The position numbers were made by a program, and so were the translations under genes. A stretch of DNA of 64,000 bases from Favolaschia claudopus. Taxonomy: Eukaryota; Basidiomycota; Agaricomycetes; Agaricales; Mycenaceae. Under the pieces are notes generated by a model that saw only the letters and a list, made by a program, of their open reading frames with translations, made no database searches and had not been told where the DNA came from. Below are positions 1,258 through 57,353 of this stretch, piece after piece. Positions within the stretch are counted from its first letter, which is position 1. Every line of letters begins with the position of its first letter. The stretch is from NCBI GenBank assembly GCA_037176885.1, contig JAWWNJ010000065.1, forward strand, positions 372,001 through 436,000, in the 5' to 3' direction.

Positions 1258-4200
1258 CTAAGGCTCCAACCGTTTTGTTTTAAAACGGGTTATAAACGGT
1301 TTAAAACCGTTTCCGTTTCCTTTTAGTTTGGTCGGAGGCCCAAACGGTTTAGAAACCGTTTAAAAGCGGTTCAAACGGTTCCTCCAGGCGCAGAATTCTA
1401 AGACGTGGAGGCGAGCGAAACAACAACTGTGCGCCGCAAGTTGAATAAGTTGAATGCCGTGTTGATGCCGTGTGTGATCCAGAATCTGATTGACAGCACA
1501 TCCGACACTTGCGGATCGTCTTTTTGTGCGCCACCTCAATGCCCGACCACAACAAGTTGACATTGGCGCGAGCCCGGAGCAACAACGACGCAACTAAACA
1601 ATCAGGCCCAGCCATAAAAGCGTGACCAGTAAGTGACTGGACGCGTTTTATCGTACCACCATGGCTAACAAGCCTGCTCCCTTAAAAGCCCCCAACTTGA
1701 AGCCGACTCGTGTCCGCACCGCGTCCAAACGCCTTGTCGATGACTCAAACAGCGAAGCTCCAAGTGCAGCACATCATTCTATTGTCGACCAGACCCAGGC
1801 GCGTCTTGACACGGGTAAGGCGCGTCTTCTTTTCTCACAGACTGACTCTTGACGCGTCTTCTTGATTCCTAGCTGCCACTATTGCCCATCTTATCCAGGA
1901 CATTGAAGATCTCGACGCTCTTCTCCCAGACACCATTGCCGAAGGAACCGAAGCCGACGAAAACGACTATCCAAGGCTTGGACTCCGGTTGTCCCGCGTC
2001 TACCTTTACTCGCCCCTTCGATATTCTATTCAAGGAAGACAACCAGTGCCGCGACGCGAATGGACGACTTCGTCACGTTCGACGCGGCGACCTGGGTATG
2101 CTGATGGTAGCCCAATATTTGCGAGACGTCAAATGGGGTGTTCCGGCCATGAATCTTCCAGGAGTGTTGTTGCAGTTAGAGCGAGTTGTGAAGGAAATGG
2201 AAATTCTTTCGTACGTCTCTTTAACCAGCGCCATCTAATTTCTCCAATTAATTTTTCGTAGTGGCGTGGATAGAGCAGAGGTCAGGAAGAAGCGGGGAGC
2301 GGCGGCTACCAAGTCCAAGCCAAGTGCGCGTAAGGCAGGCGGAGCGGCTGCTTCGCCTTCCGCTCCGGCTCCTCCAGGTCAAACCGACGCCTTTGAACAA
2401 TTATTTCAAGGTAAGTGACGGTCATGACTTATTAGCGACGCTTGGCGGTGAGACCAAGCGACACGACAAGAGCTACAAGCCCAAGAATACGGATCCGACA
2501 CTCTCAGAGGAGGAGGAAGACGATTTCATGGACGTCGATGGAGACGAACCACCCTCCAACGTAAGCCGAGATCGATTTGACATGGCGCTACTTTTTAACT
2601 TGCTTCAGGATTCCAAAAAGCGTAAAATTATCGTCGTGGACGGCGTCCCGCAAGCGCCGGGCCCTAAAAAGGTATGTGATTTATTTCTCTCCCAACCATT
2701 CAGCCGGATTCCGTTAACATTACAATGTTTTAAGAAAAAGAAAACAAAGAAAACCGCCCCTCCTGCCCCTCCTCCCGAAATCGAAGTAATCGAAGTCGAC
2801 GACGAATCGGAGGATGAAGTACGCGTCGGTGGTAAACGGGGCCCCGCCAGCAATACTCGCCTTCATTATTCCGAACCGACGGCTGTTAACAACGGTGGTG
2901 ATAAGAGGTGGTCGTTCAAATGTCAACACAAAGGCTGCACAAAGTATGTGTTCTCAAACGCGTTCAAGTAATTAGATGCTCACTTCTCGTTACGTAGAGT
3001 CATCACCTTCAAGCGCACCGTCAGCAAGACCCAGCACTTCAGCGAACAGAGACCCGCACCTAACCTCGGAAATCTAGCCACCCAACTCAAAGATGTGCAT
3101 GAGGGGGAGCCCCCTCCCTCTGGCGCGAAGCCTGGCGTAGTTCACGACGGTTCGTCTACCAGCAGCGCGTCGCTGATGGCAAAATACTTGGCCGAAGGCA
3201 AGCTCAATCCTGCCATCAATTCGACGTAGAAAAACTTTTTCAAGATTATCTCTGCTTGGATCATCGAAGACGACCTCCTACGGGTGAGACGCCGGGAATC
3301 CAGCGCCTATTTTCGTTCTTGCAGACTCGGTACTTGCTGCCGAGTGATACCACGGTGCGAAACACATTGGCGGAGATGTATATAGACATGTACAATCTTG
3401 TGAAGTCTGAACTCGCGGCAAGTGATTTTTATTGTTCTTGGGCGGCGTCTCAACTTCTTTTCAGGAGGTCAAGGCGAAAATTGCGGTCGCTACCGATACC
3501 TGGACTACCCGTGCGATGACGTACACATTCGCGGGTACGATTGGGTCTTGGATTTCGTCCGAGTGGGAACTCGTTCAGCGGGTCCTTGACTTCCATCCCA
3601 TCGAGGATAAGGAACACCAGGGTGAATATGCCGCTCTCGGTCTCGCTAAACAGCTCAACGAGTTGCAAGCTCTCGAAAAGATAAGTTTTCCCATCGACGG
3701 TCTGAATTACTTGGCTGAAGACTTCCTTTACCTTATAGCCGTGGCACTCGACAACGCTTCACCCAACACCGTGCTTGTCATGTCGCTGTCGAAGCTTTTG
3801 ATGAAGAAATTCGACATCCAATTTGTGCCCGCCAACTCTCAGATTCACTGTCTCGCGCACGTTGTCAATCTTGTAGTGCAGAAGATTTTGGCCGCCCTCG
3901 ACGCTACAGACGCTACAGACGAGTATCTCAATAATAAATATTTGCCGTTTCATTACGATCCGCAGGTAGATCCCGAGCAGATTAGATTGGAGGAGGAGGT
4001 GTTTACGAAGGAGGATGACGAGGGAGATGAAGAGGATGAGGCGGCCGAGTTGCTGGCAGGTATATTGGACGACGAATATGCGGAGATGTCTCCGTTACAA
4101 AAGGTAAGCTTCTCCTTGCTCTTTTTCTCATTTACCCGCCGATGCTACTCTTGATTTGTTTATAGTTGCGAACGGCGACTACCAAGATCTGTTCATCACC

Positions 4201-5564
4201 TCAGCGGCGAAAACGCTTCCGAGCGACGGCCGAGAGGATGTATGGTGACGAGAAGGCACCCTCGGGGCGCCCGTTAGCATCGCTCATGGTCGTCCGCGAT
4301 GTCAGGCATCGCTGGAACTACACGCATGCGATGATCAAACGCGGTCTTGTACTCCGAAAGGTGAGTTCAGTTAAATTCAATTGTTGAGTATCTGTTGGTT
4401 GAATCTTTACACAGGCTATCGATACCTGGGTCTTTGAGCGCGAGGAATTGAGAGGATTGGCTCTCCGTCTTGACGACTGGAAGCTCCTCGGAGCCCTCGG
4501 AAAATTACTTGAGGTGAGTGTTTCTATTTTGCGATGCGATACTCGTAGTAATTCTTTTCCAGCTATTCACCAACGTGACATTCTACATGTCTCAGGCGAA
4601 GACACCCACTCTTCCGTGGGTTCTTCCCATGTACGAGGCTATGCTTCGTCACCTGCGATCTTCGCGGGATAGTGTAACTCTTCCTCTCTTGTTGCGCGAT
4701 GCGGCCGCCGCCGGTCTCACCAAATTAGAAAGCTATTATTCGCTGGGATGTGAATCCCACTTGAATGTTATTGCGACGCGTGAGTTCCGATTTCTTTAGA
4801 TCTACGAGGTATTAATGCTTGTTAGTTCTTCATCCATCTCTGGGTATCTCCTGGTTCCGGAAGCTCGACCCAACAGTATCCAACTTGACGGCCGATAACG
4901 CTGAGATCGTTTTCACGCACGCTTACGAATCATATCAGCGCATTCACGGGACCCAGCCCGCTGTCTCCCAGCCTCCCCCAACCCGATCTCGCAGCAAACC
5001 CGGGGCCTTTCTAGATGACATTTGTATGACCGGTGTCACCGCCGCTGTCCCAGAATCTGCGGCAGAGCCTGTCAGTGAACTCACGCGGTTTTGGACGGCA
5101 GTTACGGGTTATATGGGTGAGGGCGACGGCGTTCTTGCTTGGTGGAAGGTTTGTTCGTGTTTGTCTCTCTGCGTCTCGATCTCTGACGATCTCCAGGCCC
5201 ATCAACACGAGTTCCCGATCGTCTCGAAGATGGCGCGCGATTTCCTAGCCATTCCGGGAACAAGTGTCTCCGTGGAGCGCCTGTTTTCCAGCGCACGCCA
5301 CCTCTGCCACGAGTCTCGGGCATCTCTACGGCCGAAGACAATATCGGAGGCGATGCTCACCAAAATGTGGATCAAGGATGGTTTATTGAAGGAAGCTACG
5401 TTGGACTGTGGGCGTGGCTAGCTACATTTGCTGTATTTTATTCAGATTTGGTCCAATTTACACTCCCGAGAACCGTTTATAAACTGTTTAAAACGGTTTC
5501 GTAATCGTTTTCGTTTGTTTTACCCCCACCGAGTAAACGGAAACTAAAAGGTTGGAGCCTTAAG
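1258..5564 (+). mobile_element. hAT DNA transposon, 4.3 kb, decayed
   Basis: The ends carry inverted repeats of 14-15 bp: CTAAGGCTCCAACC at 1258-1271 and its complement with one extra base at 5550-5564. They are flanked by an imperfect 8-bp duplication, CAGCTGAG (1250-1257) and CAGCTCAG (5565-5572), 7 of 8 matching. Both subterminal regions (1271-1380 and 5466-5530) are packed with AAACGG/CCGTTT motifs in both orientations, as expected of hAT transposase-binding clusters. An 8-bp duplication and an internal BED-RNase H-hAT_C gene define the superfamily. Confidence 0.9.
1661..5421 (+). pseudogene. hAT transposase with BED zinc finger, multi-exon, inactivated
   Basis: ATG at 1661 (MANKPAPLKAPN). 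Introns of about 45-65 bp are recognisable, for example 1815-1872 (GTAAGG...TAG), 3418-3464, and others near 4105, 4362, 4514 and 4779. Domain order: basic/acidic N-terminus; BED-type finger start at about 2905-2945 (RWSFKCQHKGC) continued after an intron; RNase H-like core at about 3464-3950 with VATDTWT as likely first catalytic Asp and an LDNASPN segment; hAT C-terminal dimerisation domain at 5218-5400 (PGTSVSVERLFSSA). The copy is broken: an in-frame TAG at 3227-3229 and a frame change near 3275, between the EDDL and TGETPG segments of the core entry. It therefore cannot make full-length transposase. The gene fills the hAT element described separately. Confidence 0.88.
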
Positions 5565-10995: not shown

Positions 10996-11757
10996 CAGTA
11001 TAGTGCCGCTCCTTGGATCACTGCCCTTCCTTGGATCATCGATTTCTCCTGCCACAACTATTGAACCTGAGCTCAAATCCTCTTACACAGGACATACTGG
11101 ATGGGTTCTGCATCCACTGAATTAATTTTGAGGTGAAAGCTTGACCGCAGCGCGAGTGAGTCGAGGATTGGTGCAAATCAGCCACTGATCCCTTATCAAT
11201 CACCTTTCTGATTCGTGGATCTTGGTCCAATGTGTCAATGGAAGGCCCCGACCATTTTTGAGTATGATCTATGACCTCTTTTGGAGCACTTTTATCGAAA
11301 GGATCGGGCAAATCAGTGCAGAAATGGCCCCAATAAATTTGGGAATGGTGGGAACCGGTGGAAGTGTCACATAATGTCACAGACCTGCCTCAAAATCAGC
11401 GGTTGCGGGAGTCTCAAAAGTGCTCAAAACATGTCGAAGCACTGAGCATTCAACATAGATATAATAGAATATGCACTCCAGGCACAGTACCAGTGGTTAG
11501 GATAGGGACAGAGCAGGAGGAAAAGAGAAATCAGCGAGTGACGGCATGATCCAAGGAAGGTGAATCGTGACGTTTTGACAGGTCAGCGCAATATTTTTTG
11601 TGGGCTCACGCACAGTCTGAGGCACTCAAGCTGAAGCTGCAATTCAACCTATTTTGTCGTCTAGTATCTGCAGTTTTAAATTCAGGAGTTAATTGTATGA
11701 CGTTGAAGAGTTATAAGCAAAGATCAAAGTGGTGATCCAAGGAGCGGCACTATACTG
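10996..11757. mobile_element. 762-bp MITE, copy 1
   Basis: The TIRs begin CAGTATAGTGCCGCTCCTTG; the reverse complement ends at 11757; TA lies on both sides (10994-10995, 11758-11759). It is an inverted copy of 31433-32194: both are 762 bp, the segments I compared showed no difference, and short reading frames on both strands translate identically. It encodes no transposase. Two near-identical copies 20 kb apart mean recent activity. It ends one base before the target duplication of the next element. Confidence 0.93.
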
Positions 11758-11766
11758 TACTTTGAA

Positions 11767-14700
11767 TGGGAACGGGCACCGCCTATGATCTCCGTGGCAG
11801 CTTTGTCCTTGTTTGGTTCGCTGGGGACCTTGGTTCCGATTTTGTAAACCCTAAGGCTTTTTATCTAGCAGCTTTTGCCCCATACTCCCAAGGAATAATT
11901 CATAGGGAATTGACTTCAGATTTGTGCTATCAGAGCAGATTTCTCAAAAGCAGATTATAATTTCTAATTGCAGCAACATTGCGGGAAACACGCCTATAGT
12001 CAAAGAAATTAATGAGAAAATAAAAAATCCGGTCTGATAGCCATGTTGCCGTACCTATTCGCTATGACTTTCCCTCTAAGTGTGAAACGATTGCATGAGA
12101 AATGAAAAAGCCTTAGGGTTTCGGGGAATCCGCCTTGAACGCGTCGGGTCACCTGTGTGACTGCGTGACAAAAAAATCAGGAGACGCGTCGCTTTTGCTA
12201 TCTCTCGAGCTTTCTTCGTGTCTTGACGCCTGAACTACAACCTAGCTTGCCTAATGCTGTCTTGGGACATTGCGCTACTTCTTCTCATCTATGCCGCGGC
12301 AGACTAGGCGGCAAACTGGCGTTGGTCAAGCTCGGGAGCACCGGCACAGTGGGCAGAACGCGGACGATGGAAGCGATGATGACGTCGAGATGGTGGATGG
12401 ATCACAGCCCGGAGGGAGTGGAACAGGCAAGCGAACAACGATGCGCGCACAACTTACGGAAAAAGAAGCTCAAATTGCCGACTTGGAAGCAACAGTCTTG
12501 GACTTGAGATCAACACTTTGCCAGCTACAGGAGGACTTTAATCGCTTACGTTGGGATCATACAACACTGGAGAATGACTTGGAACTCACCTCTGCCGCTA
12601 ACAAATCACTGAAATCCCTGAAACGAAAAGCCGACGCCGCCTTCCTGGAGGAGACTCGGAAACAACAAAAACGGTACAAACGACTGCAAACCACTCGGGA
12701 TAAAACGGCTGAAAGCACTGGCGACACAATCAGTACTCTGAACGAAACCATTGACGGACAATTTCTAGAGATAACCAACCTCTCCAGCGAACTTGCAGCC
12801 GCTCGGGAAAAGATCTTAGCACGCGACGAAGAAATCATCCAATTGCGTTCTCACCTCAAAGACCGTCAATCCACTATCACCGCTCTTCGAAATCGACTCT
12901 ATGCTTCGCAAAAACAAAATTCTCGTGCCCAAGTATCAATAAAAGAACTCCGAAAGCGGCTTCAGGTATTGCTTGTCTGGAATCCTCGGGAGAATGGACA
13001 GTATACTTAGTCTGGAATTTACCGCGTGGCAGGTCATAGGAGGGTCGCCTTATTATATAATCATCGTGTTTGGCAAGTTGTTCCCACGGCAGTTCCTGCC
13101 TCTTTCAACTGCGTGGTCGCTCATTTTCCCATAGTCTGAACGATAAGATGCATTAATAACAGTTTCTCTACACTCCCCGGAGGTCAGAACCTCTTATTTT
13201 CCATTTTGCAGTCCAAAGGCGAGTATTGTTTCTCTTCGCCGCCTTTGGCCGGCGGCGAACACCTCAAATTGAACTCATCCAAATCTCATCCGTTTCTCGA
13301 GCTTTTTTCTGGATTCAAGTGCCGATAATGCGTTTTGGATCATTTGAAAGCCTTTTGCGAGAATAAGGCGCGTAAATACGCGTTCTAGATGCCAGGATGG
13401 AACGTGAGAAATTTATGATTATATAATAAGGGGACCCGCCAATCACTAACCCCTTGGAAGTGACAGACTATTATAATACACCGCAGGTACGAGGAGTTTT
13501 GTATTCTAATGTCTGTTTATAAGAGACTACAGTATACTGCGGTTGCGCGAAGACTTGCTCGGGCGCTGATCAAAGCTGGATGTTCTGCAGGCAAGGTGGA
13601 GTTCGCTGTTACAAGCTGCGCAGAGGCATTCGGCATCACAATCAAGCGTCGATTCATGAGTCGTCGTACAGTTAGCCGGGCCATAGACGAAGGAGGAAAA
13701 TATGGTGAAATTCAGTTGGCTCGCGAGATCATGGAGGCGCCTGGTATTTCATCTGAATTTCACTTAATCACTGTATATCTAATGGCACCTTCAGGATTCA
13801 TCGAAAGCTCAGACGGAACGACGCACCGCGGAATCACAGTCGAGTCCAGCCATGTTACTCTCCTTGCCCCAACATACGAGCCTGGTGTCGACGATTCCGA
13901 CCAAACAACATGGCGACATCGTACCCGATTTATCGAGGTTGCTCCCGCGTTGGATCATACAGCGGAGCGCCAGGTCGAGGGCACCAAGGAGGTGGCGAAC
14001 CGGATAGCTGATGTGTACAATCGGAGTCCGCTGGCTGTTTTGGAGCAGAGGGTGATGCACAGGAATGAGTATTGGCGGAAGAAGCTTGGGGAGAACAAGG
14101 ATCACGCAGCCGATGGGAAGAAGGGTTTCAATATCTCTGCCGAGTATAAGAAGACCGTCGTATTGGAGGACTTGGGCCACGAAGCGATGGAGAGCTCAGA
14201 TATTGCAACGGGTCAGATACTCTCCACCATGGCGTCAATAACCGAAGACGATTTAGCGGCAGTTGCAAACGTACCAAAAGCGGAGCTAGCGAAATTGTCA
14301 GTCGAGCTCTGCAATCATTTTCATCCCATATTTTTGTAGGTCAAAGGAATCACGCACCGAACTCTCGGTCCAAACACTCGAACGCAAACTTGGAGAGCTT
14401 CAATACGAATTACTGACACCCGAGCGACAACAAGATCTCTGCACTCACGTCTTCGGAGGCTGCTGTTGCCATAAAGACCTCAACGTCCTCGGCTATGGTT
14501 ACACTGCAATCCAACGTCTCTACACCACCCACGATATCCCACCTCCTGTTCTTCTTGCCAACTTGGCCAATGCAACGACAATTAAGTTAGGCTCTGGCGA
14601 CGCGGACAACGCCGCAGTGCAGGCTGCCATCGAGTCGAGTTCAGGCGGCGCTATCAAGCTCCTGCAGTTGATGGGCGCACTGTTCCGGCACAAGGACGGA

Positions 14701-16233
14701 GAACGTGGATACCAGGACAAAGGTGTCATCGGCATCCAACAGCTCAAACTCCAAAAGTGCGGTCTTGACGAGTCCTCCAAATTTCCGGACATTTCCAACA
14801 CACGCTATGGCTGCTATTCGTATGCTGCCGCCGAAGTTATCTCCTTCCACGAACTCTATCGCGAATTCATCGAGACAACGATCAACTCAAAAACCAAGTC
14901 CGGCTCTGCCAACAACGTCGAGCGGAACATTCTCGAGGGCCTCAAATGCGATGTTACGAGGACGGAGCTGGTGGCCTTAGCGTTGTACGGTGTGTCGGTT
15001 TCGTGGCCTTACATGGCAATTGTGCGCAGTCGGGGAGCGGATGGGGAGCCGATTAATTTGCTTTCGCTCACAGACCTTCACCGCAAGCTACCAGTGTTCT
15101 GCGCGCACATCTCAGCCAACCCCCACATCTTGCTGGATCCGACAACCCCGCAGGAGCAACTCACCATTGATGGAAAACGCTTCCTGAACGGCCGCTTGTT
15201 TGACGCCATTGATGACCTCCGCTCTAAGAAAAAACTCCCGAATCTGTTCCTCGTCATCTCGGCTATGTTTTCCGGTACTGAGACTGGCTGGATACGCTTC
15301 ACTCCGGAATTCCACGTTGGCGGCACATTCGACCGGCTCACTCCTTGGCAACTTGCTGCTCTTCACATTCCCACAACCAACGACGCAAATGAAAGCAAAC
15401 TCGGTTCATACCGTGGACACATGAAATACCACCCCAACAGTACCGCAGCGACTTTCTCAAATCAAACCCGACTGGAATTCAATAACACGGAGGCATTTGT
15501 CGCCAAACACTTCAGCAAAGTGCTCGAGAAGTTTGTTATGCGGGAGGTGCGGAAAGACGGGAAGAGTCAACGACGAGCGAAATTTCGCAAGGCGTTGGCG
15601 GCGTTGCATATGGAGAAGGCAGAGAAGGCGCTGGCGCGGCGGAAGAAAACGGCTGAGCGAAAGAAAGCCATGGCAGATCGCTTGGCGGGGACGGCTCTCG
15701 AGCTTGACGTCGGCAAGATTCAATTGATGACCTCGGCTGTACTGAAGGACCAGCTCCACGTTTACAAAGATGTTCTGAAGGACGAAGAACTCTCAGCTAT
15801 GCTGTGGAAGAACATGTCAACAGTCGCTGTTCGTCGCAAATTAGTTCTGGAGGCTCGTGAACGGGAACTCTCTCGGCGGTAATCAAAGTTGGCACTCGAA
15901 AAATGATTTCTTACCCATTTCAGGCTATTATCTCAACCTACTGGTCCTACTCCTACCACACCGGCTCCCGAGGAGGAGGACGACAGCATGGTGGTTGAGG
16001 AATTTGGGTTTGGTGCAGACGAAGATGGGGAATGGGAAGATGTCGTTTGAAAACAAATTTTTTTTTTGTGCGAGCCGTGTAGAAAAGCATGTAACTAACA
16101 TATTTCTACGCCAAACCTAGGCGATGCGATATGTGTAGCGCGGGGAACACGCAGGAACATGGATTCGGAGGATTTGATAGGGAACAAACAAGGACAAAGC
16201 TGCCACGGAGATCATAGGCGGTGCCCATTCCCA
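11767..16233 (+). mobile_element. 4.47-kb TIR transposon of an unnamed type
   Basis: The terminal inverted repeats are 49 bp, 11767-11815 and 16185-16233, with one mismatch (TGGGAA, C or T, GGGCACCGCC...). The flanks carry CTTTGAA at 11760-11766 and 16234-16240; if the adjacent A is counted the duplication is ACTTTGAA, 8 bp. A subterminal inverted pair AAACCCTAAGGCTTTTT / AAAAAGCCTTAGGGTTT lies at 11845-11863 and 12104-12121. One intron-containing gene (12291-16050) fills it. The near-perfect TIRs and duplication indicate a young insertion. Confidence 0.9.
12291..16050 (+). CDS. Putative transposase, coiled-coil plus RNase H-like core
   Basis: ATG at 12291 (MPRQTRRQTGVGQ). Exon 1 (12291-12966) encodes a basic/acidic head and a long coiled coil (LTEKEAQIADLEATVLDL...). 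Further coding blocks: about 13490-13742, 13796-14291 and 14339-15878, each joined by a plausible GT-AG intron (for example 13743-13795 and 14292-14338). A last intron at 15879-15923 leads to an acidic tail ending at TGA 16048-16050 (EEDDSMVVEEFGFG). Only 12967-13490 is unresolved. The core has conserved-looking acidic motifs: SSDGTTHRG (~13812), GGCCCHKDLN (~14465) and TTNDANES (~15375), which could be a DDE/D-type triad. I recall similar uncharacterised proteins being common in agaricomycete annotations, but I cannot name a Pfam family. Exact TIRs and a duplication around it support a transposase role. It appears intact. Confidence 0.75.
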
Positions 16234-16240
16234 CTTTGAA

Positions 16241-16613
16241 CAAGTTTCGGATACTTTGAGCAAGTGTCTGCTGTACTCATTGTATCCTGGTTAGCATTAG
16301 AGGGTTTGCGAAGAGCCATTGGAGCCATTGAATGGCTACCGATTTCCGCATTAGGAAACTTTGATGGGCCAAACTTTCATGTAGAAGTTCAGAAGAGCTG
16401 CCTGGAATGAAGTTCGAGTACTCGGACTGGGGGTACCTTTTATCAATACGCCGGAATTTGGACACTTGTTTAGCCATTGGCCATTCAATGGCTGCATCGC
16501 AAACAGGCTATTGTCGAATGAGCGGACCCCTACTCGCGCAACTGCTGATAGGGAGAAATCGCGCTGCCGCCGTCAGACGCGTCCTAATGGCTGCCCAGAT
16601 CACTGTAGGTATT
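16241..16613. other. Non-coding, inverted GCCATTG motifs
   Basis: An inverted pair around GTTTGCGA..AGCCATTG (about 16304-16348 versus 16468-16506) suggests a degraded MITE. No gene is visible. Confidence 0.35.
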
Positions 16614-26900: not shown

Positions 26901-29167
26901 CTAAGACGAATTTGGATTGGGTGCTTTTGTACGTCGTCGACAGCGAGGAGTCGCAGGGTCCAACTCCGAATCAGTATCATCCTCCTCATCTGACCCGTCA
27001 TAATATTCCGAGTCTTGAAGACGCTTGAGACCAGTCTCAGGGGAAGGGCTCTGGGGCAGAGGGATCGTTTCGGGGAACTCATTGTCGGATTCTTGCATGT
27101 CGACATCATCGCGAGATTGTTCACCGGCGTCATCAAGGAGAGGATCAACCTCCTCTAGACCGAGCGCACCATCCTCTGATGGAATTACGGGACCTTCTGA
27201 TGATGTGAAGGGGCTGGATGGGCAAGAGATGGACATGGGATCGTCCGGATAGTCGGACGAGGGTTTAGGCGTGGTCATCGGCACTGTTTCACCGTCTGTG
27301 TCGCAAGCTGCCTAGATACAACACTTAATGAAAAGGAAATGTAAATGTTTCCATTGACATACCTGATAACCGCCACATTCATCTGCAAACGCTTCCGAAA
27401 GACGAAGGAACCACGACATTCTCTGATCGGCCGCAGTTGCGGGTGTCCAGATATCGAAGTGGAGGAGGACAGACGCGAGGATACTGAGCACAATGCCGCC
27501 ACACGAGAAGGTGTCCCGTTGACGCGGGGATGGGAAGTTGGCGGGAATAAGAGGGAAATCATCAGGTTCATCCAGGAGAGACTTTAACCACCACCGAACA
27601 GGACCGAGCTGGTCGGGCGGTATGCTGCCATCCATGGAATCTGCGTATGCGAGGGTTTTCGTGACAAGGTTAATCTGCAGAAGCGTCCAGTGGTTGCCCG
27701 AAACATGGAGCGGGAACCAGACGACATCAACCGCTCCCGCCCGGATCGCTTTCTCGATGGGTGAAAATCTTGATGGAGTATAGCTGGAGCCTCTGGCACT
27801 AGCATTCTGCAAGGACTGCATAAAAAGACAATTAAGGATGCGCACACGAGTATTTTCGGCTCTCTGTAAGATGTAGTCGATACCAGCATTGAGCATATCA
27901 TCGTCAAGCCATTCATTGCTGAGAAAAGTTGTCAGACTTTCCGTCGTCAGTCGCACCGCAGGGCTCAACCCCGGCACAACAGTGTCCCATGGCAGGAATT
28001 CGAATGTATCGCGGCATTCATCCGCCGTGCCTACGCTGTCGGTCGGGACGCGCTTGAGCCAGAGTGCGGCGCGATCCCAATACCCTCGCTTTGTGACATA
28101 AAGCTGCATGTCGGAGAGCAGGTTCTCCACCCAGAGAGGATAGTGAAAAGTGAGATGGGGGAACTTGATCGATGTAGCGCCAGAAAGCCAGGCGTTGTTG
28201 AAGAATCGGCGAAGGTCGCGGGAAAAGGGTATTGCTGTGAATAGGCTGTCATGCCATTCTACAGCATCGAAGGATGGAGGCGCAGTGACCGGTTGGTTTG
28301 TAAAGACCGCGTCGCCCGCAGGCCGCGTGCTAGAAACCATGGGACCATCCTGTAGAAGAAGCTCGGCGACGGTGGTGGTCGAGCTTGGTATCAAAAGCGA
28401 ACGTGCTTCGAACGGAACATGGCGGGCAGCGTTACGGGCGTGCTTGACGGTGTCGGGTAAATCATCTGACCAGACGGCTCCGGCGTAAGGCGCTAAATCA
28501 AAGTCTGCGGGGACGGAACTGCAAGCCCGGTGGGATTCTGTATCCGACGAGACGTCTATGGTCGTCAGCTCGGGAGTGGCGTCCCCTCCACCTGCGTAGA
28601 TCGGGAGATGCGAACAATGGACAGGACGCCAGTTCGAACGACGTTTACGTTTACGCGGGCTGGGTGCCAGCGTGGTCCTCATAGCTTCCAATATTTTGCG
28701 TCGCCACAGTCGTTCTTCTTGCGTATCTGGTGGTAGCGGTTCCAGTGGCGGCATCGTGTCCCATTCGGGAAAGCCAGTGAAAATGGGAACGTCAGGAGGG
28801 TCGCAGGTTTGAGTAGGAGTCTTGCTCAAACCGAAAAACTTTGCAACGCGATCCAGACTAAGGTGGGATATATGGGTCCGGCGATATCGAGGCGATGCAT
28901 AGAGGTATCTTTGAAGCGGGAGTAGCTTGGGCCGTAGGTAATGGACTGAAGGACTGTTAGCACTGAGAGAGAGAGGGGTGCGTAATGACTCACGGAGGCA
29001 AAGGAACAGAACCTGTAATTCACAGGCATAGACTACAAGAGCTGCAGCCACATTGGCTACCCCCTTCTCCGACCCAATATGGCGAAGAGCCTCGAGTAGT
29101 GATAGACTTGTGAGACGAAGGGAGAGGGCGAGAGTATGGTATAACTTGCCTTTCTTTTTTACCATTC
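26901..29167 (-). CDS. Ulp1-like C48 cysteine protease, transposon-associated
   Basis: ATG at 29165-29167 (MVKKKGKLYHT). An intron at about 28950-28996 and one at about 27311-27370 (GTATGT...TAG) give an ORF of roughly 700 residues. The protease domain (about 27960-27390) has the C48 layout: LSNEWLDDDML entry, catalytic His in SGNHWTLLQ (~27690), Asp in YADSMDG, Gln in PRQRDTF and Cys in FSCGG (~27497). Family members cleave SUMO/ubiquitin-like proteins or process large proteins; Ulp1-type proteases are repeatedly captured by fungal transposons. After the second intron comes an acidic, Ser/Asp-rich tail (27284-26904) ending in a basic patch and TAG. It lies just upstream of, and co-oriented with, the P-like transposase gene; the small gap suggests one mobile unit or an ancestral fusion. 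Confidence 0.75.
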
Positions 29168-29304
29168 TGAAAATGAGACGACTGGTGGAGAGGGAGGGAT
29201 GGTGGGAGGTTGAGGGTGGGAATTGAAATTTTCCACCAGTCACACTAGACTGGGCACCAGACGCGTCAGTGACGCGTCAAATATAAGTGCAAGACGAGAC
29301 CAAC

Positions 29305-33228: not shown

Positions 33229-34656
33229 TCACACCAACTTGGTCTTCGCGTTCATCGATCGCTCGTCCTCTTTCACCGCGCCAGACACAGAACGTTCCAA
33301 TATGTAGAAGCTCAACGCCTTCTGAATGTACCTTTCAAATGTTAAACCTGAAGATGCCGCCCTCAAAATATTTGCAGTATTTGCATCCACATGAGAGGCA
33401 GCTGAACGTACTTTGATATTAGCTGCGTGGAGTGGAGCTAAGTCTTCGAGCGAGCGCCAGTAGCGAAGGAAAGCGTCTGACGACCAGCGCCCCATTGCTT
33501 TGACAACATCTGGAGGAACTCCCGCGAGGAGAAGTTCCGTGGTCCCACCGATTCGGAAGCTATGCCCGGTACTGCGCGGATATCCAACCAAGCGCCAAAT
33601 CTCATTGCAGCGCTGGAGAAATTTGTGTTTGGTCAACGCTCGGATGCGACCGTTGGAGGAGTAGCTGAAAAGCGGCTGCGAATCGGTGAAATTGTTGACT
33701 TTCATATGCATGTGAAGGGCAACACGTGGGTCTGGTGGTTTCGACTGGGACACGAGAACGACGTCTTCACCGGACTTCTTCGTTTTGGTGCGTGGGAGAT
33801 GAAGAACGGTGGCGTTTTTATGGCGGTTGGAAGAGGAGACATGAATGCGGAACGGTTTATAGGAAGTGTTGGCCGATTCCGACTCTACGAGCAGTTCTCC
33901 GAGGCGACATTGACCCCAGAAAGCCACACAAGCCGCCGCAAAAACGGCGAGGTCGAGGGATGAGGTAAAATTGAGGTGTTTATGAAGGGTAGATAGCATC
34001 GCCACGGTGATTGGGGGCCGCGGCGGGCGTTTCGATGCTTCGGGAGCAAGATTTTCCACACCGGCGAGGACATAGAGTAGACGAGGCCCGCCATTCCAAG
34101 GCTGATTCTGCGCAGCGTGCCAGGCTTTCACAGCAGCTATGTTATCTCGAGCGGTGGAACCTGAATGGGATCCTGCTCCGGCGGCGGCAAAAGCACATAG
34201 CACAAACTCGTTGGCGGGAAGCTGAAATTTGAGCGGGACTCGCTCGTGGACGCAGAATTTCAAGAATCTGGTGACAGCGTAATTATAATTTTGAAGTGTG
34301 CTAGGAGCCCAGCCGTTTTGTAAAGCCTTTTCTAGTTTAGCTCTAGCCGTGCGCGAAAGATAAGGGTGAGGGGAGGTGAGAGTTCCGGGGTGAATAAAGG
34401 GGCGGAAGAATCGGAGGCTTGGTTTTTGCGGATCAGGATGGCGTTTGTGAGTGGGACGAGTATCAGCCATGTCAGGATTACAAGCACGGAGATTCTTGTC
34501 TTTAGCTAGACGTGCTGGTGACCACGGCGCCATGAAAGTCGGGAAGAAAAGCTGACTCGGGAGATGGTCCTTGATCCGGGTCAGTCTGACAGGTATGACG
34601 TCAATGCTAAAGACTTCTTTTACTTTGCAGCAGAGGCTCATCGCCAAGAGTTTCAA
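33229..34656 (-). CDS. DIRS tyrosine recombinase
   Basis: 475 codons in one open frame. Catalytic layout: first Arg in GQCRLGELLV, the His-x-x-Arg box in TGHSFRIGGTTELLLAG, then GRWSSDAFLRYWRS with the candidate nucleophile Tyr. The N-terminal SAM-like part (SRTARAKLEKALQNGWAPST, LQNYNYAVTRFLKFC) is typical. The enzyme would insert the circular cDNA by site-specific recombination without a target duplication. The start is uncertain: the frame opens 41 bp after the RT-RNase H stop, so ribosomal coupling or splicing is possible. No break is visible in this gene. Confidence 0.85.
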   Translation of the reverse strand: MKLLAMSLCCKVKEVFSIDVIPVRLTRIKDHLPSQLFFPTFMAPWSPARLAKDKNLRACNPDMADTRPTHKRHPDPQKPSLRFFRPFIHPGTLTSPHPYLSRTARAKLEKALQNGWAPSTLQNYNYAVTRFLKFCVHERVPLKFQLPANEFVLCAFAAAGAGSHSGSTARDNIAAVKAWHAAQNQPWNGGPRLLYVLAGVENLAPEASKRPPRPPITVAMLSTLHKHLNFTSSLDLAVFAAACVAFWGQCRLGELLVESESANTSYKPFRIHVSSSNRHKNATVLHLPRTKTKKSGEDVVLVSQSKPPDPRVALHMHMKVNNFTDSQPLFSYSSNGRIRALTKHKFLQRCNEIWRLVGYPRSTGHSFRIGGTTELLLAGVPPDVVKAMGRWSSDAFLRYWRSLEDLAPLHAANIKVRSAASHVDANTANILRAASSGLTFERYIQKALSFYILERSVSGAVKEDERSMNAKTKLV

Positions 34657-34697
34657 AGCTGATAAGACGAGGAAAAAGAAGTAGAAACATCATCTAA

Positions 34698-36300
34698 TTA
34701 AGCCTCGGCCAGGAGGGTACGTAGACAGAAAGGTAGCTCAACGGTAGATTTAAGAGGCTGGATAGAAGTATCGGAAGGGGGAGATCCTCTAGAGGGCAGA
34801 TCAGCTAGGTTTTCGCTGGTAGGCACGTATGTAGTTGTAATCCAGATGGAGTGTGAACGCATGAGCGATACGATGCGCCGAAGAACTCGATTTTGCTCCA
34901 AACTGCGGGATTTTCCGCCGTCCAGAGCCCCAATTACGCCTGTATTGTCTGAGTAGATGTGGAAGTGGACGTCAGAGTGGCCGCGTGAGATTGCGACGAG
35001 CAAACCGAGCTCTATGGCAACCATCTCCGCCCATCCAATGCGACGAGGCTCTGAATCCCAGCCCGGAAGTAATTTCCACGACTTCCATTGGCCGTCAAAA
35101 ATGACACCGACACCAAAGTCAGTCGAGGCATCCACCCAGAATGAGATGGGAGACAACGTAGGAGGTCGAGTGAGTTTGGAGCCGCAGAACGGCTGCGAGA
35201 GAGTGGTCCTCCACCATGAGATGTCGTCGAGGACAGCGGCATTCGGTTCCCATCTCACAAAAGGGGATGATGCGTGATTGAAAGAGGAAGCGAATTTAGT
35301 GATCGGGGGTAAATGCGACCGACCCCCGGGAACAGCCATGGAACAGTGAACCAACGTTCTGAGGACTGATTCGGCGTCTTTGCGAGAGAATTTTGCGCCA
35401 CGAACCCAAGGAGCAAGCTTGGCAACGTAGCGTTCACGCTTATCGGCAGGCAGTTCCACGGTTTTTGCCGCGATGTCCCAAAGGAAACCAATATACTTGA
35501 ATATAGTGGCAAAGGGTCGAGTTTTAGAAGGCTTCCAAGGCCAACCGAGGAGCTTGGCGAAGCGTAGATGTCGTCGAGGGAGTAGTTGTAGGAATTTGTA
35601 TCGGGATTTAGATATCGGAAGAAAAGGAAATCATCGACCCATTTTTTCAACGGGCCAATGTCGTTAGCGAGATATAGGGCCGCCATGGCATCAGCAAGAC
35701 GTCCCCAGATCCCTGGAGAGCTGGAAGGGCCGAAGGGTGCGTTATGATCGACAAAGCACATCCCATTCCAATGAATAACGAAGTGGCGCTGCTGAGAGGG
35801 AAGGATCAGAACACGTCGAAATGCCGCGTCGACGTCGAGTGTGGCAGCTTCCGTTCCTGCCGGTGCATCGAGCACGAGGAGAACTATCTCGGAAGAAGTT
35901 CCCCACTCGCATGGGAAGTCATCAGAGTCAATTTCGGAATTTACCGATGCGTGAGTCGGATCGTCGTAAGGGAAAGAAAAATCTTCAACAATGCGCCATT
36001 AATCAGGACTTCCAGCCTTAGGAACGACACCGAGGGGAGAGGTGCGGAATGGACCAATTAAATGTTCGAGTCGAGAGGGAGAGAAAGGACCGGTGTAGTG
36101 GCGAGCTAAACGCTCGGAATTAATGTACTTCTGGATTACGTCGGGGTGATCAATGGCAGATTTACGATTAGGTGGGAGATAGGTAGAGGAGGGGATAGAA
36201 GAGATTCCAAAATCAAAACCTTCGCGAAGACCAATAGGAATGTCAAAGAAAATATCTAGTAAGCCCGCGCTTTGAAGCGCGAGTTCCCTCTTGTCCGGCA
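34698..36300 (-). pseudogene. DIRS reverse transcriptase-RNase H
   Basis: RT motifs: PFRTSPLGVVPKAGSPD (~36040), LDVDAAFRRVLI (~35830), HNAPFGPSSSPGIWGRL (~35740), KKWVDDFLFF (~35640, the catalytic VDD). RNase H: SFWVDASTDFGVG, VAIELGLL, HIYSDNTGVIGAL. A TAA at 35999-36001 follows GSPD where conserved VEDFSF coding continues, and a one-base deletion near 35556-35561 shifts the frame in the thumb region. The enzyme is therefore dead in this copy. Confidence 0.85.
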
Positions 36301-36319
36301 AGAGGGGAGTAACGATAGG

Positions 36320-38137
36320 TAAGATTTCACACAGCGCGGCATCTCTGGGCGGGATGAGAGCCATCCTGCGCGCCGCATAGCGAGCACCAATGATGGCCGA
36401 GGCGGCAGTATGCTCCAGACTGGCATCCGCGGCGGCCGTTCCAAGCGAAGCAATATCTATTCCCTTCGCTGTCCACCCTGGACCCGTCGTGGCTACGGGC
36501 ACCGAGGACCGTGGGGCGTCCATCGCCACGGTTTTGGGCGTCGCAGGAACGAGATTGATGGGAGGGGTCTCGGTTACCGCAGATGAAGCACCGAGGACCC
36601 GCAGGGTTTTCTCCGTTTGTAATCGCGAGCGGCGCTTGGTTTTGGTTCTTCCGAAAAAACTGGTTCTTCGAACGAGAATTGGAATTGGAATTAGAGTTGG
36701 AGTTGGAATCATTGTATGGGTGGAAACGAGTGGAGGAAGAGGAAGCATGAGTGGTGGATGAATTACGGAGCTCGGCGCGAAGTTCCTCGAGTGCCGAGGA
36801 TTTCCAGTCACGTTTCAACACGGCGTTGTAAATGACGTCGTGGAAGACGGCGGGGTCTAAGCTGGAAACGGTAGATCTGTAGCGAACTTCGGAATCATAC
36901 GCCGCCCAGACGGCCCAGTTGCTGTCCTCGCGATGGGCGCAGATGTAGGTGAAATGAGTCCGCCATTTCCCCAACTCCAGGGGGACGTACGTGCGAATCA
37001 GATCGAGCAAGCGCTGCCAGGCTCCCCACCAATCGGTAAATCCGAGAGCGCGTTCCTTGTCCATCGAGATTTCCTTTGGAACAGGAACAATGCCGCGTGT
37101 ACCGTCGAGAGCGTAAGTGTCGTCGAATTCTTTCGCAGCAGCGACGCGATTCAGGATGGAGCAAGCTTCGTCAGTCAGAAGATTGAGCGGGACATGCTTT
37201 CTCCACCCCTCTGCGAAGCGCTTCCGAGCAATTTCCGGTACAAGACTCGCTGCGGAGGTGGCTTGAAGACCATCGACACGCTCGGGGCGCTTCTGGGCGA
37301 GAAGAGCGGCGCTCGCTAAATCGGAAGGAGGCCCAGAAAGTGGCACATTTTCGGAACCATTAGCGGCATCTGGGCTCGCATTAGTGGCACATTCGTAAAC
37401 GGAAAGTAATATCATGACGTAGAGATAGGCGGATTTACGCCAGTACGCGTGTAAGCGTCGGAAAACGAAGTAGAATTTGAATATAATAATTACCGTGTTC
37501 GTAGACACGATTTGGAACGCAGTCATCGCAAACGAGCGCAATCGATGCGTTGTAGACGCAAGGTATAAGCCATAATGTGGCAAAATCACGGCCCGTAAAG
37601 CGGCAAAAATAAAGGGGAAGAAATGTCTCTGAAGTAGAGGCGGATATAACGCCGACGAGAACGTCCGCAAGTAAGGCAGCAGTATAGTAGGAGGTACAAA
37701 ACATAGGAGAGAGGAAGAGAAGAGAGATAGAACAGGAAGACTCACCTTTGGGAAAGAGCCATCGAAGCGCGCGCTCGAGTTGGTCCGGTGGAAGGCTTTC
37801 GAGGATCTGAATGTTCGCTTGGCGGTCCAAGTCGACAGGGGCGTCTCCGTTAGGAGCGCCGCCGCCGGGGGGGGGGGTTGGGTGGGGGAGGGTTCTGGGC
37901 GCCTTCAGGTTCGATACCACCCCATGGACTAGGATGGCGTGACGAGCCTGAGGAAGACGAGGAATCATCGTTCTGAGGGTAGTCCCGAAGGTAGTCGCTC
38001 CGCTGCTTCTTAGTGAAGAGAGCGGCGTAATTGTCATCCAAGCAGAGCTCGGGGTGAGCAGTAAGATGAGGCTTCACCAAGCCCTTGAGCACGGGCACAG
38101 TGTATGTAGCGGGTAGAGCGATCCCGAAGTCGACCAT
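36320..38137 (-). CDS. DIRS gag-like protein with zinc fingers
   Basis: Starts MVDFGIALPATYTVPVLKGL (38137). A likely intron of a few hundred bp (about 37745-37350) separates it from KRPERVDGLQATSAAS onward. The central helical part (LGFTDWWGAWQRLLDLIRTY) is followed by an Asn/Ser run and two Cys clusters: CFICGNRDPSHQSRSC and CFAWNGRRGCQSGAYCRLGH followed by HWCSLCG. Such CCHC plus CCCH-like C-termini occur in fungal DIRS gag. It overlaps the RT frame at its end. The exact intron borders are not resolved. Confidence 0.7.
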
Positions 38138-55990: not shown

Positions 55991-57353
55991 GAATCACCGA
56001 GCTTGGTACAGTCGTCGAGCGGAGTGAGTAGAGGTTGTGCCGTTTGCCCGCGGCGATGGTGTGCAGCCGTGAGTTCCAAGGCTTGGCCGTTGGGAGTGCT
56101 GCACGCTCGAGCTTTGCTTGAAGCTATACTGCTGATGCCGAAAGTCGATACGGACTGGCGTTATTTACCAGGAGCCACCTGGGATGCGTTTGTGTCAGCG
56201 TTATTCGCTGTCGAGGGTCGCCCGTATCGAAATGGAAAGACGAGCAGTCGAAGAAATCTTGTGTTTGTCCAGGAACAAGGTGGTTCTATTGCAAACGCAT
56301 AAAGACTACGTAAGTATTACGAGAGTACAGTAGGCTGTAAACTAAATAGAGGTAAATAATTACCGCTAACACGTACCATTGACAATCAGGTCATTCCTGA
56401 CCCTGAACAACAGGATCCACTTTTCACTCGTGGTTTTGTCCCAAATGTGACCGCGGAGCAGACTGAAATGGAACGACTTCGGCAAGCAGCATTTGACACC
56501 GATCAGCCTATTATCCTCACTATGCCCAATGTACACGGAACTCTAATCAATGAACATTCTGGACAAAAGTGAATGCATTTCCCACGCTATTCCCTACAGG
56601 AAAAGCAGACTTTACTGAAACACGCGAGATTCCGGTGACCATGACTGGATGCGCAGCACATATGATGCGGTACGAGGACGGAAGATTTGCTCGTCATCCA
56701 CGCTTTCGTTACTGGGCACTGAACACCATTATGCGACACGAGGCTAAAAAAGCATCCAGGTGGTACACCACTACCCACAATGATGACCGCGACTTGACGG
56801 TGGAAGACACAAGACAGATGTTGGAGGAAAATGATGCTAAAGGCCATGCAGCAGAGGAGCTTCCGGGCTCACGGCCATTCTGGACAAGAACTCAGCGGGA
56901 TCTTATTGCACAAATTCGATCTCCAGAGTGTGGAACTCCACATGTATTTATGACCCTCTCGTCCGCCGACATTCAATGGCCGGACAATACCGATATGAAT
57001 GGCAGCATCGAGGCAGTAGCCATGTGCATGGCTTTGATTGGCTTGCGGATGCGCCATCTATTGGCTCGCTTACATAACACTTCGGATCCGGTGCAAATGC
57101 AACAGTTCATAAATTTCTGGGATCAACATATATCAACCTGGCACCCAAACAAAAGTACACCTCCAGCTGAGATTCATCCCTCAGCCCACTCTTCAGCACA
57201 CTCGAAGACACGAAACTCGAACTGGCCCAGACATTGAGCCGTTTTCAAAGGCACACGAGGTGCACTGCAGGCTATTGCCAGCGCAAAAAGAAGGACACTG
57301 GGGATGTCTTTTGCCGATTTGGATTTCCTAAGCAATGTCGTGAAGAGACTCAA

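Follow-up and report, generated by a model that had tools for sequence, protein, structure and literature searches.

The C/DxxH motif is given, in the accessible portion of PMC3706591, for the hAT, P, MuDR, Kolobok, IS256 and Dada transposases, and target-site duplications (TSDs) of 4-10 bp are reported there for this group. The histidine of the CxxH motif (H268 in Hermes) sits in the active site, a CxxH mutant of Kat1 makes nicks and no hairpins, the Hermes residues W182 and W319 are required for efficient hairpin formation, and the Kat1 counterpart of W319 is dispensable for hairpins (PMC4763223, accessible part). The present work concerns a 4467-bp transposon located at 11767..16233 (forward strand) of a 64,000-nucleotide stretch of Favolaschia claudopus DNA, called here the window, and delimited on the basis of its terminal inverted repeats (TIRs) and a 7-bp TSD. 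An earlier note on this DNA had described it as a mobile element of the DDE (Asp-Asp-Glu) type with TIRs and a TSD, which holds, and its transposase as one without a nameable superfamily, which is not borne out in that form, as the predicted structure is nearest to Hermes and CxxH is shared with the groups listed above. We consider it very probable that the element is a DNA transposon which moves by cut and paste and whose DDE transposase falls in the C/DxxH group, structurally nearest to hAT; the TIRs, the 7-bp TSD, the many copies, an empty site and a predicted RNase H fold in which Asp/Asp/Glu are almost invariant, together with CxxH, form the basis of this assignment.

The left TIR (11767..11815), opening with TGGG, was found to be identical to the right TIR (16185..16233, reverse strand) at 48 of 49 positions, as claimed before. 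The flanking exact duplication, previously given as 7-8 bp, is real and its length is 7 bp (CTTTGAA at 11760..11766 and 16234..16240); the 8-mers differ, since the eighth base is the final A of the right TIR. The genome (264.6 Mb, 460 contigs) was searched with a 71-base TIR query (first 71 bases), which gave 30 scored matches, and 29 of these, the window included, were examined together with five relatives found by exon sequence. Twelve distinct two-ended insertions were obtained (the window, L009, L011, L012, L013, L014, L016, L029, L030, L055, L058 and L059), L009 and L010 being the same site with identical flanks over 500 bases on each side. One-ended loci were not counted among them, nor were L024 and L025, in which the second arm is no normal end. 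An exact 7-bp duplication was present in 10 of the 12 insertions and an 8-bp one in none; the 8-bp reading was rejected, all ten exact duplications in this genome being 7 bp long. L014 and L030 have intact TIRs and no exact 7-bp duplication. At L014 a 10-bp repeat, CTCCCAGTGG, shifted by one base on the left, was noticed. Five insertions measure 3.9-4.6 kb, six of 0.9-1.5 kb share the ends, and L011 is a deletion derivative of 2.8 kb. The scan for an end plus TSD gave no partner TIR for the one-ended or truncated loci L015, L017-L028 and L031, and no TIR pair was found for L056, L057 and L018 within the stretch examined.

When the two flanks of L011 are joined, they agree with C21:1634100-1634339 at 240 of 240 bp with a single CAAGGTG, thus the empty site sought in the earlier note exists. 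In case of L055 and L012, which lie in dispersed repeats, the junction was crossed in 40/40 and 39/40 of the listed rows, the remaining row of the second search being the locus itself. The proposed young age was also borne out, aligned pieces of the element being 98.2-99.8% identical to the sister copies L009-L011. The third exon, used as a DNA query, gave 40 scored places of 53 candidates, with 100% to 64% identity, partial and allelic ones included. Three of the five diverged paralogues have their own TIRs and 7-bp TSDs: L055 (85% protein identity, CATATAG), L058 (61%, TATGTAT) and L059 (61%, CTTCTAG). The expectation that homologues would sit between matching TIRs was therefore confirmed in three of five cases, with duplications of 7 and not 8 bp. 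Several contig pairs have the same outer flank (L009/L010, L017/L018, L019/L020, L021/L022 and L026/L027; compared over 500 bases in the first pair and over 12 in the other four), hence, judged from sequence, the assembly seems to carry both haplotypes or recent large duplications.

A single gene lies between the two TIRs, as proposed earlier, with the predicted exons within 12291..16050 on the forward strand. The first coding exon is an open frame whose 5' part (12291..13007) encodes the long coiled coil, and it is interrupted by a 521-bp segment (13008..13528) and continues at 13529..13743. In L009 the two parts are joined without a break and the exon is a single open frame of 517 codons from stop to stop, although the reading frame of this copy is broken further downstream. 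The segment lies between two copies of ACAGTATACT (12998-13007 and 13529-13538), which constitute a 10-bp duplication at its borders, and its inner inverted repeats (13033-13064 and 13415-13446) are set back from its ends. Since it is missing in six copies (L009, L010, L011, L018, L019 and L020) and the L009 exon reads through, by sequence comparison it is a nested insertion in the coding sequence and not an intron, and the intron formerly placed at 12967-13490 is rejected, that region spanning the insertion. A relative of it is present in L015; it is possibly a MULE-like miniature element. The copy in the window would be an interrupted one with intact ends, mobile solely in trans, if at all.

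Downstream of the insertion, a predicted 51-bp in-frame intron (13744..13794, GTATTT...TTCAG) had been overlooked; the joined exons read REIMEAPGFIESSDGTTHR, matching the homologues, and a similar exon break occurs in L058 and L059. The second coding exon (13795..14296) carries the codons of the first catalytic aspartate, D1 (13812-13814, in SSDGTTHRG), and of the second, D2 (14100-14102, in KDHAADG). The next intron (14297..14339, GTCAGT...TTGTAG) was checked by splice-site frame and homologue alignment, and like the last one (15879-15923) it is a prediction from splice sites and frame. The third coding exon (14340..15878) contains the CxxH codons (14461-14472), the Arg codon of the TRY motif (14803-14805) and the Glu codon (15391-15393, in TNDANES), and the last one (15924..16050, stop at 16048-16050) encodes the acidic tail.

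The RNase H-like region proposed in the earlier note was recovered by structure prediction, the three acidic residues of the modelled domain lying where expected (D314, D410 and E821, with C516 and H519 of CxxH, in the numbering of the homologue P0006). The DG, HKDLN and TNDxxE motifs named there are real, but the His of HKDLN is part of CxxH and provides no catalytic acid, and the set was incomplete as the second Asp, in KDHAADG, had not been listed. In the alignment A3, D1 is conserved in 103/104 and D2 in 103/105 rows, C516 in 103/103 and H519 in 103/104, while the aromatic position of TR(Y/F) is Tyr or Phe in all 105 covered rows. The model shows a long coiled coil at the N-terminus, helices from D2 up to a strand at 512-515, and, as in Hermes, a sizeable insertion, helical for the most part, that separates the glutamate helix from strand five. 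In fold comparison (Foldseek and VIA, two models) the hAT transposase Hermes scored best, far ahead of the other matches, and in a viral library the match was a Pandoravirus protein named hAT_C. P-element structures were not among the Foldseek matches listed, which is uninformative either way.

At the sequence level no such relationship was detected. No transposase profile was found among the Pfam matches listed, in agreement with the earlier statement that hallmarks of known superfamilies are lacking. The third exon of the window matched one family only at E<=10 (PGBA_C, 1.7) and P0006 three at E<=1, none of them a transposase, and no MULE, P or KDZ (Kyakuja/Dileera/Zisupton) profile appeared in the rows listed for these two queries. 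In the Pfam scan of 35 members 25 of 60 families were listed, so that a match of a single member could be concealed. Dimer_Tnp_hAT (PF05699) was not matched in the rows listed, whereas the positive control, an open reading frame (ORF) at 4816-5418 belonging to the window's own hAT, gave 1.1e-14. Hhalign comparison with the hAT ORFs of the window, made with single sequences, gave no signal. The profile of A3 matched among PDB sequences (best 60 of 126 rows) only by the N-terminal coiled-coil stretch and found no transposase; the exon sequence had 3 PDB matches, again without a transposase, and NCBIfam recognised none in three proteins. Scanning viral contigs with A2 gave 29 pattern matches, with no relative among them.

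The spliced protein has 65 homologues at E<=0.001, with identity of at most 67%, nearly all from Mycena and other gilled mushrooms, by which the host is probably an agaric close to Mycena; 63 belong to Mycena, Roridomyces, Hypsizygus, Gymnopus, Hymenopellis and Dendrothele. An alignment search gave 61 proteins and added Cylindrobasidium and Crassisporium. The search from a distant branch gave 261 homologues, overlapping with the 65 and mostly metagenome proteins, and among the best 120 listed Pholiota, Laccaria, Hypholoma, Phlegmacium and Candolleomyces are found; all the genera named are presumably Agaricales. As suggested before, the names listed are hypothetical or uncharacterized protein, with the exception of one Laccaria entry named glutamic acid-rich protein. 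No Pfam domain is given for the 65 or the 61 homologues. PF14916, PF16808 or PF25764 is given for 20 of the 120 listed distant-branch proteins, and we know of none of these three as a transposase domain. The family is unnamed in the literature searched (titles, abstract openings and term counts, Repbase and most subscription journals lying outside the search), and HKDLN and HKELN occurred in no paper among the matches listed; a Repbase name may already exist. Many proteins of Agaricales that are now called hypothetical (the 65 and the 261, overlapping) can be explained as transposases.

The RNase H core, the large helical insertion ahead of the Glu helix and CxxH are common to Hermes and the element, and it is quite conceivable, if short of an even chance, that the family is a divergent member which belongs in hAT, like hAT7 of rust fungi. 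Besides the fold match and CxxH, this is favoured by the existence of hAT groups with 5-, 6- and 7-bp TSDs, hAT7 of Puccinia having 7 bp like the element (PMC12730594, accessible part). According to the same partial text hAT7 was placed in hAT by transposase similarity, whereas none was detected for the present family, which is set apart from it by this description. Several other features argue against membership. No Dimer_Tnp_hAT or BED match is present in the Pfam rows listed, and there is no conserved N-terminal zinc-finger cysteine cluster: cysteines conserved in at least 80% of the rows are only C254 and C516 in A3, and C194, C347, C450, C452 and C571 in A4. The residue two after D1, at the position of Hermes W182, is Thr in 103/105 covered rows and Trp in none; D180 and D248 of Hermes are taken here as D1 and D2. 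The distance from D2 to the Cys of CxxH is about 105 residues, compared with about 20 from D248 to H268 in Hermes. In place of the Tyr/Phe of the TR(Y/F) motif hAT has Trp, and this position may correspond to W319. The TSD is 7 bp and not the 8 bp of hAT, the 49-bp TIR begins with TGGG, and the protein has a long N-terminal coiled coil and no BED or hAT_C profile match.

A further reading, at somewhat under an even chance, is a superfamily-level lineage of eukaryotic cut-and-paste transposons that is spread through gilled mushrooms, lies concealed among hypothetical proteins and forms, inside the C/DxxH group, the sister of hAT. It would have lost the equivalent of Hermes W182 (and perhaps of W319), would recognise DNA without a BED finger and might excise without flanking hairpins of the hAT type or with hairpins otherwise stabilised. 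The divergent-hAT explanation shares the mechanism proposed below and differs in classification alone. Since PF05699, BED, the 8-bp TSD and W182 were not found and the core fold and CxxH are present, hAT-like is the best short description, without filing the family in hAT. It appears as a lineage of the wide C/DxxH group (hAT, P, MuDR, Kolobok, Dada) that has diverged past sequence recognition, several hAT hallmarks being gone.

It is unlikely that the element is a MuDR-, P- or Kolobok-like member of the C/DxxH group. The TSDs of these elements are 8-10 bp or TTAA, as opposed to the 7 bp found here, Hermes was ahead of ISCth4 by about 6 Z units, and no MULE or P profile is present in the Pfam rows listed. 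A Dada transposon is very improbable, even though Dada shares the 6-7-bp TSD and C/DxxH, is distantly related to hAT, P and MuDR and occurs in Laccaria (PMC3706591, in its accessible portion). The insertion targets and the zinc fingers do not fit, and Dada was set aside: a tRNA was found at 0/11 loci and an Rfam RNA at 0/12 at gathering score (a search without positive control), there is no CCCC or CCHC pattern among the conserved Cys/His columns of A3 and A4, and between D2 and CxxH the model is helical as far as the strand at 512-515, with no DnaQ-like exonuclease. The contig of the Laccaria homologue P0148 (1.05 Mb) is too short for the coordinates of two Laccaria Dada elements listed in the same partial source. 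A KDZ element is the least credible candidate, for although Kyakuja makes 7-bp TSDs in Agaricomycetes, it is described in the accessible part of PMC12730594 with 5'-CA..TG-3' ends and no TIRs, as against the 49-bp TIRs beginning with TGGG, on which ground Kyakuja was set aside, and neither a Pfam domain for any of the 65 homologues nor a transposase profile match of P0006 supports it.

In the mechanism proposed here, the transposase would bind the 49-bp TIRs, assemble through its N-terminal coiled coil, cut both ends using two metal ions coordinated by D314, D410 and E821, and then link the ends to target DNA at cuts staggered by 7 bp. CxxH is kept, but Thr stands two residues after D1 and Tyr/Phe occupies the TR(Y/F) motif; by analogy the element most likely moves by cut and paste in the manner of hAT, with a hairpin step that may or may not be shared. 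A hAT-like enzyme without W182 and BED offers a natural test of the parts needed for hairpin-based excision. Ends reading TGGG(A/G)AC... with a 7-bp TSD are diagnostic of these elements in this genome and allow genomes to be masked and annotated properly.

Other repeats were observed around the transposon. The positive control ORF belongs to a genuine hAT remnant of several ORFs (2252-5421, forward strand) with TDTWTT, LDNASPN and CLAH read by eye, for which no clear pair of TIRs and 8-bp TSD emerged. At 10996-11757 a short element, flanked by TA and having CAGTATAGTGCCGCTCCTTGGATCAC as its inverted ends, adjoins the target site, and its right part has close copies elsewhere in the genome. The right flank contains a high-copy repeat (16295-16510), the best 40 of 984 candidates matching at at least 94%. 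At 33229-37904 (reverse strand) successive ORFs resemble, by eye, a reverse transcriptase, an RNase H and a tyrosine recombinase, with a weak Phage_integrase match (0.0038) below the cut-off, suggestive of a DIRS/Ngaro-type retroelement. An ORF with a Ulp1 protease domain lies at 27312-29276 (reverse strand), and one with a Helitron-like N-terminal domain at 56554-57237 (forward strand).
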